From Oscillospiraceae bacterium (GTDB lineage Bacteria; Bacillota; Clostridia; Oscillospirales; Acutalibacteraceae), in NCBI GenBank assembly GCA_015065505.1, contig SVQE01000030.1:1-33125 (forward strand): DNA of 33,125 nucleotides, written 5' to 3'. The notes under the pieces are model-generated. The model had not been told where the DNA came from. It made no database searches and was given only the letters and a program-made list of their open reading frames with translations. Position numbers and translations under genes: made by a program. Positions 14,976 through 24,208 of this stretch are shown here, piece after piece (the stretch's first letter is position 1; the number at the start of each line of letters is the position of its first letter).

Positions 14976-16067
14976 ATGAAATGTAAAAACTGCGGAGCAA
15001 AGCTTAAGGATAATACCGAAATATGCCCCAACTGTGGCGCATTTATCGAGGAAGAAGGATATGTTCTGTTAACGGACGATGACGCAATGTTTGATATATC
15101 CGCAACTGTTGACGAGGATGACGAGGAAGCACCCGTTCAGAAGAAAAAAGGCGGCGGATTTATTCGCTTTTTAAGCCTTTTGTTAACCCTTTTGATAATT
15201 GGCGCAGGTGCGTATTACTATTTCACCAAAATATATCAGCCAAAGCCCGACAAACCCGAGCTTACATTTGTTACGGGAAGCGGAGTTATCAACGATGATG
15301 AAGAAATAATCTATGTGCTTCTTGACGAAAAATCAAATATTGAATTCATTCACGGTGTTTCGATTTATGATTACGATAAAACCGATAAGCAAGCCGATAA
15401 AAAGGGCGCTGTTTCAACCGATTACGAATACACAAAGAACATTGATTCAACCTTCAGGGCAATATTCTTTGACGTTGACAAGCTCGGCGAGATTGGCACA
15501 GAAAACACCTACACCTTTGAAATGAGCTTCAGCTTCTACAATTCGGACAAGGTTTATACCTATGAACAGCCGATAACATTTTCCTCGCAGATAACTGATG
15601 AGGCGTCGGATTTGATATTCGACCACACTCTCACTGACGAGCAAAACGAAAAAGAAGATGAATCAACAACGGATAATGCCGAAACAACAACAAAAGCTCC
15701 CGAAACAACAGCTGCTTCGGGAGGAATGGAATTTGTTTATGATTCTTATTGGTTCACCCAGCCCGTTCAAAACGGAAATGAATACATTATTGCCGCAATT
15801 AAAGTCAACCGCGACAGAACCTACACAACAACAAATTATTATAAAAACGGCGACAGCAGCTGGGAATTAACAACCCACAGCGGAAAATACACCGTTGAAA
15901 ACGGATTTATCGTTATTGATAACGGCGAGGCAACTGAAAGCACATTTTATAAAATAGATACCAAAAACCAAACTCTCTATGAAGAAGAAAACGGCGAGAA
16001 AACCGCTGAGCTTTCAGCAAGGAAATATAATTCAATCAAAAACGCAGAGGACTTTTTCGGAATATAA
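14976..16067 (+). CDS. Zinc-ribbon, single-pass membrane protein of unknown function
   Basis: 363 aa from the ATG at 14976 with AGAGGTG upstream; a GTG three codons earlier sits inside that site. The N-terminus is a zinc ribbon (CKNCGAKLKDNTEICPNCG). After an acidic linker and a KKK stretch there is one membrane helix (about 60-84). The outside part has a first beta-rich domain (about 90-220), a Thr/Glu linker (TTTKAPETTA) and a second beta domain with Y/T-rich strands ending NAEDFFGI. The layout of cytoplasmic zinc ribbon plus extracytoplasmic domains recurs in the gene at 19664. I do not recognise the outer domains; the last one resembles lipocalin-like repeats only in its strand pattern. 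Confidence 0.8.
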   Translation: MKCKNCGAKLKDNTEICPNCGAFIEEEGYVLLTDDDAMFDISATVDEDDEEAPVQKKKGGGFIRFLSLLLTLLIIGAGAYYYFTKIYQPKPDKPELTFVTGSGVINDDEEIIYVLLDEKSNIEFIHGVSIYDYDKTDKQADKKGAVSTDYEYTKNIDSTFRAIFFDVDKLGEIGTENTYTFEMSFSFYNSDKVYTYEQPITFSSQITDEASDLIFDHTLTDEQNEKEDESTTDNAETTTKAPETTAASGGMEFVYDSYWFTQPVQNGNEYIIAAIKVNRDRTYTTTNYYKNGDSSWELTTHSGKYTVENGFIVIDNGEATESTFYKIDTKNQTLYEEENGEKTAELSARKYNSIKNAEDFFGI

Positions 16068-16071
16068 TTAT

Positions 16072-16511
16072 AGTGGTCAGTGGCCAGTGGTCAGTGGCCA
16101 GTTTATAGGTGATTATTATGGCAATTTTAGAATATAAGGACCTATTAGTTTGGCAAAAAGGTATGGACATTGTTGAAGAAACTTATCAGCTCACCAAGCT
16201 TTTGCCAAAAGAAGAAATATACGCTCTTTCAAATCAAATGAGACGAGCAGCAGTATCAATTCTTTCAAACATAGCAGAAGGACAGCAGAGAAAATCTACT
16301 AAAGAGTTTGCAAACTTTCTCTCTATATCAAGAGGTTCAGTTGCTGAACTTGAAACACAACTCTATATTTGTGTCAGACTTAATTATTTAACAGCAGAAC
16401 AAGTGAAAAAATCGCTTGATATGTGCGCTGAAATTGGAAAAATGCTAAATTCTCTGATTGAGAAATAAAAACGAAATAACACCGGCCACTGACCACTGGA
16501 CACTGACCACT
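16072..16511. mobile_element. S23 element bounded by 28-bp heptamer inverted repeats
   Basis: The left arm, 16072-16099, is AGTGGTC and AGTGGCC alternating, four units. The right arm, 16484-16511, is the reverse complement of the same with one mismatch in 28 bp. Between them lies only the S23 gene with its own ribosome binding site. The whole unit is 440 bp. The start lies 4 bp after the stop of the upstream gene and the end lies just before the tetR terminator. The classification as mobile is inferred from the ends and from related gene-less copies at 8940 and 24095. Confidence 0.6.
16118..16468 (+). CDS. Four-helix-bundle protein, S23/IVS-encoded family
   Basis: 116 aa from the ATG at 16118 with AGGTG upstream. 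It matches the family first seen encoded in intervening sequences of 23S rRNA genes: LLVWQKGMDIVEETYQLTK, then YALSNQMRRAAVSILSNIAE followed by GQQRKSTKEF, then SRGSVAELETQLYI. Four amphipathic helices are evident. Relatives include Avd, the accessory protein of diversity-generating retroelements, which forms a pentamer binding RNA. There is no reverse transcriptase here and no nuclease motif in the protein. It is bracketed by inverted heptamer arrays, recalling the stem-forming ends of rRNA intervening sequences. The molecular function is unknown. Confidence 0.88.
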   Translation: MAILEYKDLLVWQKGMDIVEETYQLTKLLPKEEIYALSNQMRRAAVSILSNIAEGQQRKSTKEFANFLSISRGSVAELETQLYICVRLNYLTAEQVKKSLDMCAEIGKMLNSLIEK

Positions 16512-16524
16512 AAAAATGGACACT

Positions 16525-16554
16525 AAAAAAAGACAGCCAAAGCTGTCTTTTTTA
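16525..16554. terminator. Terminator of tetR, probably bidirectional
   Basis: AAAAAAAGACAGC (16525-16537) pairs with GCTGTCTTTTTT (16542-16553) around CAAA. The stem overlaps the stop codon of the minus-strand regulator. Confidence 0.85.
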
Positions 16555-19663: not shown

Positions 19664-20377
19664 ATGAAATGTAAAAACTGCGGAAATGAATTATTAATAC
19701 CCGACGCATCCTTTTGCGATGTTTGCGGCGCACCCATAGTTTATGATAACGACCCGGCTGCTATCGCTGCAAAAAATAATAAAAAAACCGTTACGATTGT
19801 AATAGTTTCAGTGCTTGTGGCTATTATACTGCTTTCTGCCGCAACAACCTTAGGAATTATAGGTATAAAAAAGCTTCGTAATAACAAAACAACAACCAAT
19901 GAGGTTACTACAACCGTTACCACTCAAGCAACCACAGACAGTGACAGGGCTTCAAATGAAATCCTCACATACAATGTCGAGGTTGAAATACAGGGTGACG
20001 GAAGCGTTAAAGGCACCGGCGAATACACTGAGGGTGAAACCGCAACCCTGATTGCAAGCTCGGACAGTAAATATACTTTCTCGGGATGGTATGTTTCCGG
20101 CTCCAACGAGCTTGTTTCGTCCGATGACACGATTGAATTTGTAGTTGACAGCAATATCACCTTAATCGCGATTTTTAAACCCGTTAAAACAACCGCTCGT
20201 GAATCAACAACATCATATTACGACGATGATTATTACGACGACGATGATGATTATGACGATTACGACGATTATGAGGACTATGAAGACGACTACGATGACT
20301 ATGAAGAAGATGATTATTATGATGATGACTGGGACGACGAAGATTGGGATGATGACTGGGACGACGATTGGGATTAA
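19664..20377 (+). CDS. Zinc-ribbon membrane protein with Asp/Glu/Tyr/Trp-only tail
   Basis: 237 aa. Zinc ribbon at 3-22 (CKNC ... CDVC), one membrane helix at about 42-66, a Thr-rich linker, then one beta-grasp-like repeat (about 100-173, with GEYTEGETATLIASSD and FSGWYVSG) of the kind found in InlB-type surface repeats. Residues 185-237, 53 in all, are only Asp/Glu (37), Tyr (12) and Trp (4). With the N-terminus inside, this tail lies outside the cell. It could bind cations or a basic wall partner. The ribosome binding site is poor. It shares its MKCKNCG start and overall plan with the gene at 14976. Confidence 0.8.
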   Translation: MKCKNCGNELLIPDASFCDVCGAPIVYDNDPAAIAAKNNKKTVTIVIVSVLVAIILLSAATTLGIIGIKKLRNNKTTTNEVTTTVTTQATTDSDRASNEILTYNVEVEIQGDGSVKGTGEYTEGETATLIASSDSKYTFSGWYVSGSNELVSSDDTIEFVVDSNITLIAIFKPVKTTARESTTSYYDDDYYDDDDDYDDYDDYEDYEDDYDDYEEDDYYDDDWDDEDWDDDWDDDWD

Positions 20378-24074: not shown

Positions 24075-24094
24075 TCTTACACCTCATACAATGA

Positions 24095-24208
24095 GGAATT
24101 AGGAGTTAGGAATTAGGAGTTTCGGTTATTCGCTTCGCTCAAACAATTATTGACCGAACGAAGTGAGATACCATAATTCGTAATTCGTAATTCGTAATTC
24201 GTAATTAT
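24095..24208. repeat. MITE-like heptamer element E/F between infB and rbfA
   Basis: The left arm is GGAATTA, GGAGTTA, GGAATTA, GGAGTTT (24095-24122). The right arm is TAATTCG four times plus TAATTAT (24174-24208), the inverse of CGAATTA and so related to the left arm. The core between them (24123-24173) contains GGTTATTCGCTTCGCTC and then AAACAATTATTG, matching the core of the element at 8940. TTCGGT (24121-24126) and ACCGAA (24153-24158) form a hairpin. The right arm touches the stop codon of infB. Confidence 0.65.

Follow-up and report, generated by a model that had tools for sequence, protein, structure and literature searches.

A gene of the S23 family in an Oscillospiraceae bacterium and the two inverted arrays of five short words that enclose it probably form one stand-alone, likely mobile element, whose protein is predicted to be a five-subunit ring with one word of an array for each subunit. 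The gene lies in a stretch of 33,125 nucleotides (contig SVQE01000030.1, GenBank assembly GCA_015065505.1), referred to here as the window. The inverted-array layout is more general than this locus and recurs in several bacterial phyla.

The S23 element and its surroundings

The features of the window on which the analysis is based are as follows.

16072-16102, plus strand: left terminal array of 31 nt, made up of five AGTG/AGT words spaced by 3 nt; its end is 15 nt upstream of the ATG
16118-16468, plus strand: gene of an S23 / four-helix-bundle protein of 116 aa (PF05635, TIGR02436)
16481-16511, minus strand: right terminal array (31 nt), an inverted copy of the left one, starting 12 nt past the stop codon
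24090-24121, plus strand: left array of an array-only mini-element, five AATT/AGTT-type words (32 nt)
24175-24206, minus strand: right array of the mini-element, AATT ACG four times followed by AATT on the minus strand (32 nt)

The left array of the S23 element reads AGTGGTC AGTGGCC AGTGGTC AGTGGCC AGT and the right array, on the minus strand, AGTGGTC AGTGTCC AGTGGTC AGTGGCC GGT, so that both are identical at 29 of 31 positions. An earlier reading of this DNA from its sequence only had described inverted repeats of 28 bp with one mismatch, and these are real: the best 28-nt arms share 27 of 28 positions, compared to a maximum of 18 among 500 first-order Markov sequences. Its division of each arm into four 7-nt units is better replaced by five words covering 31-32 nt per arm. 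The open reading frame between the arrays runs from the ATG at 16118 to a stop codon at 16466-16468 and is the only one of at least 60 aa inside the element, which bears out both the lone S23 gene and the lack of a recombinase or reverse transcriptase noticed before. The tight fit between two host genes was also seen correctly, as the upstream open reading frame ends at 16067 and a convergent TetR-like one at 16552, with a terminator-like hairpin between the right array and the TetR-like gene. As RNA, the 440-nt element folds with -135.9 kcal/mol (z -7.0). Elsewhere in the window, a run with a 9-nt period at 20244-20326 consists of GAT/TAT-type codons and encodes the Asp/Tyr-rich tail of the open reading frame 19664-20377.

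In seven further species of the genus (G066, G070, G006, G036, G011, G025 and G019), the orthologues of both neighbouring genes lie side by side. The S23 gene is absent between them in all seven, since the gap of 45-183 nt, compared to 491 nt here, is too short to hold it. In two further genomes (G097 and G015) both neighbours are on one contig without being adjacent. One of the seven relatives (G066, contig C22) has at the same intergenic site an exact AGTx5 array of the AGTTCCG type along with remains of different words, which gives the impression of repeated hits at this site.

An Rfam scan of the window locus found no rRNA, and its neighbours are protein genes. The proposal of a self-contained S23-family element living outside rRNA thus stands, because inverted arrays recur beside other S23 genes and relatives lack the gene at this site.

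Inverted arrays beside other S23 genes

The recurrence of such arrays was examined at loci from two sources. Among 60 related genomes, 36 contained PF05635 places, 90 in total, and the flanks of 75 of these were used. They were combined with the flanks of 71 named loci that a single scan of genome contigs had yielded, two of which were dropped due to flanks that were too short. The named loci come from rumen Clostridia, Bacteroidales, Chloroflexi, Calothrix, Rivularia, candidate-phyla bacteria and others. Removal of duplicates left 143 S23 loci with 286 flanks; loci and genomes are related by kinship, and P values computed from them overstate independence.

A period-7 segment was present in 122 of the 286 flanks, period 8 occurred in one and the other periods from 4 to 12 in none. 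The arrays are confined to the first 250 nt from the gene (64 of 136 windows upstream, 54 of 139 downstream), and beyond this distance only 0-3 were counted per bin of 91-136 windows. Flanks of control genes from the same genus contained none (0/54 and 0/38, together 0/92). Within 250 nt, arrays are present on both sides at 39 of the 143 loci, on a single side at 44 and on neither at 60, which gives 83 loci with at least one. The rule is therefore common, not universal. Of the 60 loci without a period-7 array, 25 have words spaced by hairpins, described below, and 35 have neither kind. S23 genes of several phyla thus adjoin inverted period-7 arrays, close to the gene, and the check on recurrence that the earlier reading had proposed came out in its favour.

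The inversion is consistent. Upstream arrays are in sense orientation at 45 loci, antisense at 5 and ambiguous at 17; downstream arrays are antisense at 44, sense at none and ambiguous at 11. The two arrays of a locus also match each other: at 28 of 75 loci their similarity exceeds the 99th percentile obtained for pairs from different loci, compared to an expected 0.75 loci. At 36 two-sided loci, the upstream and downstream units agree in all seven positions in 19 cases, in six in 13 and in five in 4. Different S23 genes of one genome may carry different heptamers, of which one genome (G006) has five. Rfam scans of 17 S23 sources found no rRNA. They detected only a tmRNA close to the S23 gene of L222 and matches to group II introns close to that of L215.

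Five words is the commonest array length. When arrays were delimited as maximal lag-7 segments, 57 of 122 covered 30-33 nt with a peak at 31, and a second peak at 37-38 nt corresponds to six words. Counted by words (n=149, with a floor of four set by the seed and two duplicate loci, L065/L175 and L066/L186, included), 81 arrays have five words, 28 have six and 18 have four. A few are expanded to 14-30 words.

In a second layout, small hairpins take the place of the 3-nt spacers between words. Hairpin-spaced chains of at least three words were found in 33 of 282 S23 flanks, one of which (L203) is really a period-7 array, compared to 0 of 282 shuffled and 0 of 94 control flanks. This layout occurs at 27 loci, 24 of which encode proteins with the motif GANxxE. 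Clear cases, with five words and four hairpins, are L104 and the upstream flanks of L102 and L086. The chains have no peak at five, as 12 consist of three words, 9 of four, 10 of five and 2 of six. Hairpin-separated words in the flanks of L046, L076, L086, L102, L103 and L104 mark a second S23 subfamily. At L004, L046, L076 and L103 the two flanks are alike in direct, not inverted, orientation, as if the S23 gene had entered a hairpin-spaced array.

Arrays without the gene

Array-only copies are scattered through S23-bearing genomes. The mini-element at 24090-24206 of the window belongs to another word class than the S23 element, with AATTAGG words on the left and AATTACG words on the right, and lies between two other genes; the inverted, hairpin-like core between its arrays was read by eye. 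AATTACG arrays are present at many places in the window's genome (G000), and when up to 2 mismatches are allowed, the AGTGG-type pattern matches 67 times there, at 27 places, compared to one match for the reversed control. Many of these places are solo arrays (12 of 26 examined are 30-34 nt long), and some copies are inverted pairs around a small hairpin. Copies also occur beyond terminators and in both orientations. A sample of 200 kb from this genome contained 15 period-7 arrays, 14 of them outside long open reading frames. No array was present in 345 kb sampled across eight S23-negative genomes of the same genus; these stretches were non-random, and two of the eight genomes (G011 and G002) are near kin of the window's genome.

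In a survey of 80 genomes of the genus, 40 had an S23 match. AGTGG-type arrays were found in 11 and AATTCGG-type arrays in 16 genomes, all of them S23-positive. The more general AGTx5 pattern matched in 22 of 40 S23-positive and 2 of 40 S23-negative genomes, and AATTx4 in 21 of 40 and 1 of 40; the exceptions are two genomes with one AGTx5 match each and one with a single AATTx4 match. When SNxAEG genomes were defined by a PF05635 score above 114 bits, all 9 of them had at least three AGTx5 matches, compared to 8 of the 31 other S23-positive genomes. Reversed control patterns match often in some S23-positive genomes, most of all for AATTx4, perhaps because other array words fit the reversed patterns. 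Among S23-bearing genomes from other records, AGTx5 matched in 18 of 20, with the control equally or more common in several. Rivularia has 1691 AGTx5 matches compared to 119 for the control, and its arrays lack the 31-nt peak.

Families of related copies were also found. An unusual allele with one AAAGCGG unit is present at 17 places with unrelated surroundings (5 in G033 and 12 in G036), in stretches chosen for holding it, and two AATTCGG units precede this unit in 14 of the 17 copies. One copy in G033 is the left end of an S23 element. Several copies end in an array of another word, so mini-elements may join two different words. In another genome (G104), 20 stretches chosen for array hits contained 16 array pairs of 109-145 bp; 20 of their 32 arms are exactly 31 nt long, and in 9 pairs a shared core scores well above the shuffled comparison. 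No target-site duplication was detected at these 16 pairs, with a mean shared length of 0.94 compared to 1.09 for shuffled pairings and none above the control. A further genome (G031), which is 96% complete, has 61 AGTGG-type matches, yet only one partial, low-scoring S23 match. On its contig C43 (L285, 16050-17200), two near-identical composite repeats of about 250 bp or more are located about 750 bp apart, and both terminate in an AGTGG-type array.

Protein subfamily and word class

The window protein is a full-length member of the S23 family, with 141.9 bits against PF05635 (cut-off 33.8) and 134.2 bits against TIGR02436 (cut-off 24). Its AF2 model (mean pLDDT 96.0) matches 2gsc and 2rld, the closest solved structures, with five chains in each entry, and more weakly Avd of diversity-generating retroelements (DGRs), which has the same fold (4dwl_D, E-value 4.8e-3, TM 0.78). 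The scores against the Avd families are just below the cut-off for PF22296 bAvd (38.2 of 40 bits) and 46 of 80 bits for the NCBIfam Avd model. Avd is a pentamer.

An alignment of 36 S23 sequences has 15 invariant columns. The median dN/dS is 0.087, and all 33 pairs compared, which are non-independent and were limited to 70-98.5% nucleotide identity and dS below 2.5, have values below 0.5. The S23 protein is under purifying selection.

Word class follows protein subfamily. Among 70 proteins with the motif SNxAEG, 48 have AG-type words, none AAT words, 3 other words and 19 no array, while among 62 GANxxE proteins 15 have AAT words, 1 AG words, 8 other words and 38 no array. The 11 proteins with neither motif include that of the window, whose LSNIAEG is outside the SNxAEG pattern and which was counted as 'other' with AG words. 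Protein identity and heptamer similarity are correlated across 77 loci (Mantel r 0.50, reached in 0 of 999 permutations), a correlation that would also be expected from common descent of gene and array. Proteins that were too short or had in-frame stops were excluded from this test and from the dN/dS analysis.

Relation to known systems

By its published description, the intervening sequence (IVS) at helix 45 of the Coxiella burnetii 23S rRNA gene contains an S23 open reading frame within about 430-440 nt, a 28-bp terminal stem and, upstream of the frame, three tandem GACAGAT heptamers with a degenerate fourth (PMC4990558). The window element shares the S23 open reading frame, a length in this range, complementary ends (29 of 31 nt) and upstream heptamers. 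Unlike the IVS, it lies between protein genes instead of inside an rRNA gene, has matched five-word arrays on both sides, and arrays of its type also occur throughout the genome in places that lack the gene. What S23-bearing IVSs do and where they come from is termed unclear in the same description (PMC4990558).

Intergenic heptamer arrays have been described independently of S23. GGGAATC of Xanthomonas forms arrays of mostly four units with 70-75 convergent, i.e. inverted, pairs and a role left open, and the arrays of GGGGA(T/C)T in Nostoc are longer and mostly unpaired (PMC4692102). The Xanthomonas arrays resemble those found here in being intergenic, 7-nt-based and convergently paired, and the structure 2gsc comes from the same species, X. 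campestris. For TAACTGA repeats, a repeat-binding protein has been speculated to be the mobile element (PMC4679880), and G-quadruplexes, regulation or slippage have been offered for heptamer repeats (PMC4692102, PMC4679880). The term 'S23' has no hits in the available text of these two papers, and no S23 link is made there. PF05635 is described as resembling Avd (PMC10053308) and is merely mentioned in the accessible parts of PMC8700078 and PMC10910872. In the open-access literature, no tie of stand-alone S23 genes to heptamer arrays was found, and S23 and heptamers appear together only for the one rRNA IVS, as far as the available text goes (PMC4990558).

In its general organization the element is also similar to REPINs. 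These have short inverted, array-like ends, and their array-only copies coexist with one gene of the cognate protein, the RAYT, which is an HUH/Y1 tyrosine transposase. Inverted array ends and dispersed array-only copies are common to both. The differences are that the ends here are five-word arrays and that S23 is a four-helix bundle without a known nuclease motif; no Y1/HUH transposase gene lies within the element, whose only open reading frame of at least 60 aa is that of S23. The lack of target-site duplications at the 16 G104 pairs distinguishes the mini-elements from transposons with terminal inverted repeats and from MITEs. Cyanobacterial STRRs are heptamer repeats as well.

Possible modes of action and movement

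The reading of gene and arrays as one element with a ring-shaped protein includes several conditional steps. The S23 protein would be a pentamer like its solved relatives, and each subunit may read one word of a five-word array, a correspondence proposed because the two closest solved structures have five chains. S23 could recognize arrays in cis and bind array-only copies in trans, in the way proposed for RAYTs and REPINs. It would then help host replication or repair to copy the hairpin-forming element into single-stranded DNA between genes. This route is suggested because the element is devoid of a transposase or reverse transcriptase and the mini-elements are without target duplication. 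Copying at the DNA level that relies on host functions, in which S23 binds the arrays, appears to be the likeliest picture, and the movement step is its least certain part.

A wider version of this reading is more speculative, and we would put it forward only tentatively, with the balance somewhat against it. According to it, the S23 pentamer reads a five-word nucleic-acid code, in which the words are of AGT type for SNxAEG and of AATT type for GANxxE proteins and the spacers are either 3 nt or hairpins. The pentamer would drive transposase-free mobile elements across phyla. The rRNA IVSs, cyanobacterial STRRs, TAACTGA, GGGAATC and the general heptamer excess would all be its products.

Alternatively, S23 may be cargo between two arrays that are moved by another host or mobile enzyme. 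To our knowledge, S23 has no catalytic motif or site and no nuclease motif, mini-elements spread without the gene, and the many AGTGG arrays of G031 coexist with only a partial S23, all of which would suit a passenger. A passenger would not be expected to belong to a subfamily that goes with the word class of the arrays, to be under such strong purifying selection, or to have arrays nearly confined to the genomes that carry it, and this explanation is considered unlikely.

Another possibility, which we regard as quite improbable, is a regulator similar to TRAP, a repeat-reading ring that binds one repeat per subunit. The S23 ring would bind the five-word array in RNA and control the translation of its own and other genes, and the arrays would be regulatory sites instead of parts of a mobile element. 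The end of the left array 15 nt before the ATG and the predominance of sense arrays upstream of S23 genes are in line with this. The five chains of 2gsc and 2rld and the five-word mode also agree with the equal numbers of subunits and repeats that a TRAP-like ring would have. Regulation alone does not lead one to expect the inverted array downstream of the gene, copies past terminators and in both orientations, sites without the element or families of mini-elements. Regulator and mobile element could both be true.

Given the relatedness of S23 to Avd, one could also think of a retroelement that travels as RNA and uses a reverse transcriptase acting in trans. This is in agreement with the fold matches to Avd in 4dwl and in the DGR complexes 8ube and 8ub7, and with the long hairpin into which the element RNA folds. 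Neither the reverse transcriptase nor the template and variable repeats of a DGR were found: the element has no reverse-transcriptase open reading frame, and RVT_1, the only reverse-transcriptase family searched, was found in 21 of 80 genomes and not in the window's genome, which is 89% complete. Array presence is similar with and without RVT_1, as at least three AGTx5 arrays occur in 5 of 21 genomes with it and 12 of 59 without, and AATTx4 arrays in 6 of 21 and 12 of 59. A resident RVT_1 enzyme was rejected as the driver since it has no association with the arrays. The RNA route that the sequence-only reading had allowed for is disfavoured in this form, because RVT_1 was found neither in this genome nor in most array-bearing relatives, and a retroelement appears very unlikely overall.

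Polymerase-slippage microsatellites unrelated to S23 have next to no probability: slippage has been hypothesized as the cause of the heptamer excess (PMC4692102) and would account for the few arrays expanded to 14-30 words, but it yields no inverted matched pairs, five-word size, confinement to S23 flanks or tie to S23-bearing genomes (15 arrays in 200 kb compared to 0 in 345 kb), and is contradicted by the flank controls, the matched pairs and the comparison of S23-positive and S23-negative genomes.

Implications

Bacterial genomes have been noted to contain 7-nt repeats in excess, and the literature available does not agree on the cause (PMC4692102). The link between S23 genes and arrays makes this excess and the function and origin of S23-bearing IVSs directly testable. 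If the proposed reading is true, the element represents a strategy of mobile elements that manages without a transposase or a resident reverse transcriptase, and the pairing of protein subfamilies with words would be a natural protein-to-word code. A word-reading ring of five parts would then account for the abundance of 7-letter repeats in the genomes of bacteria.
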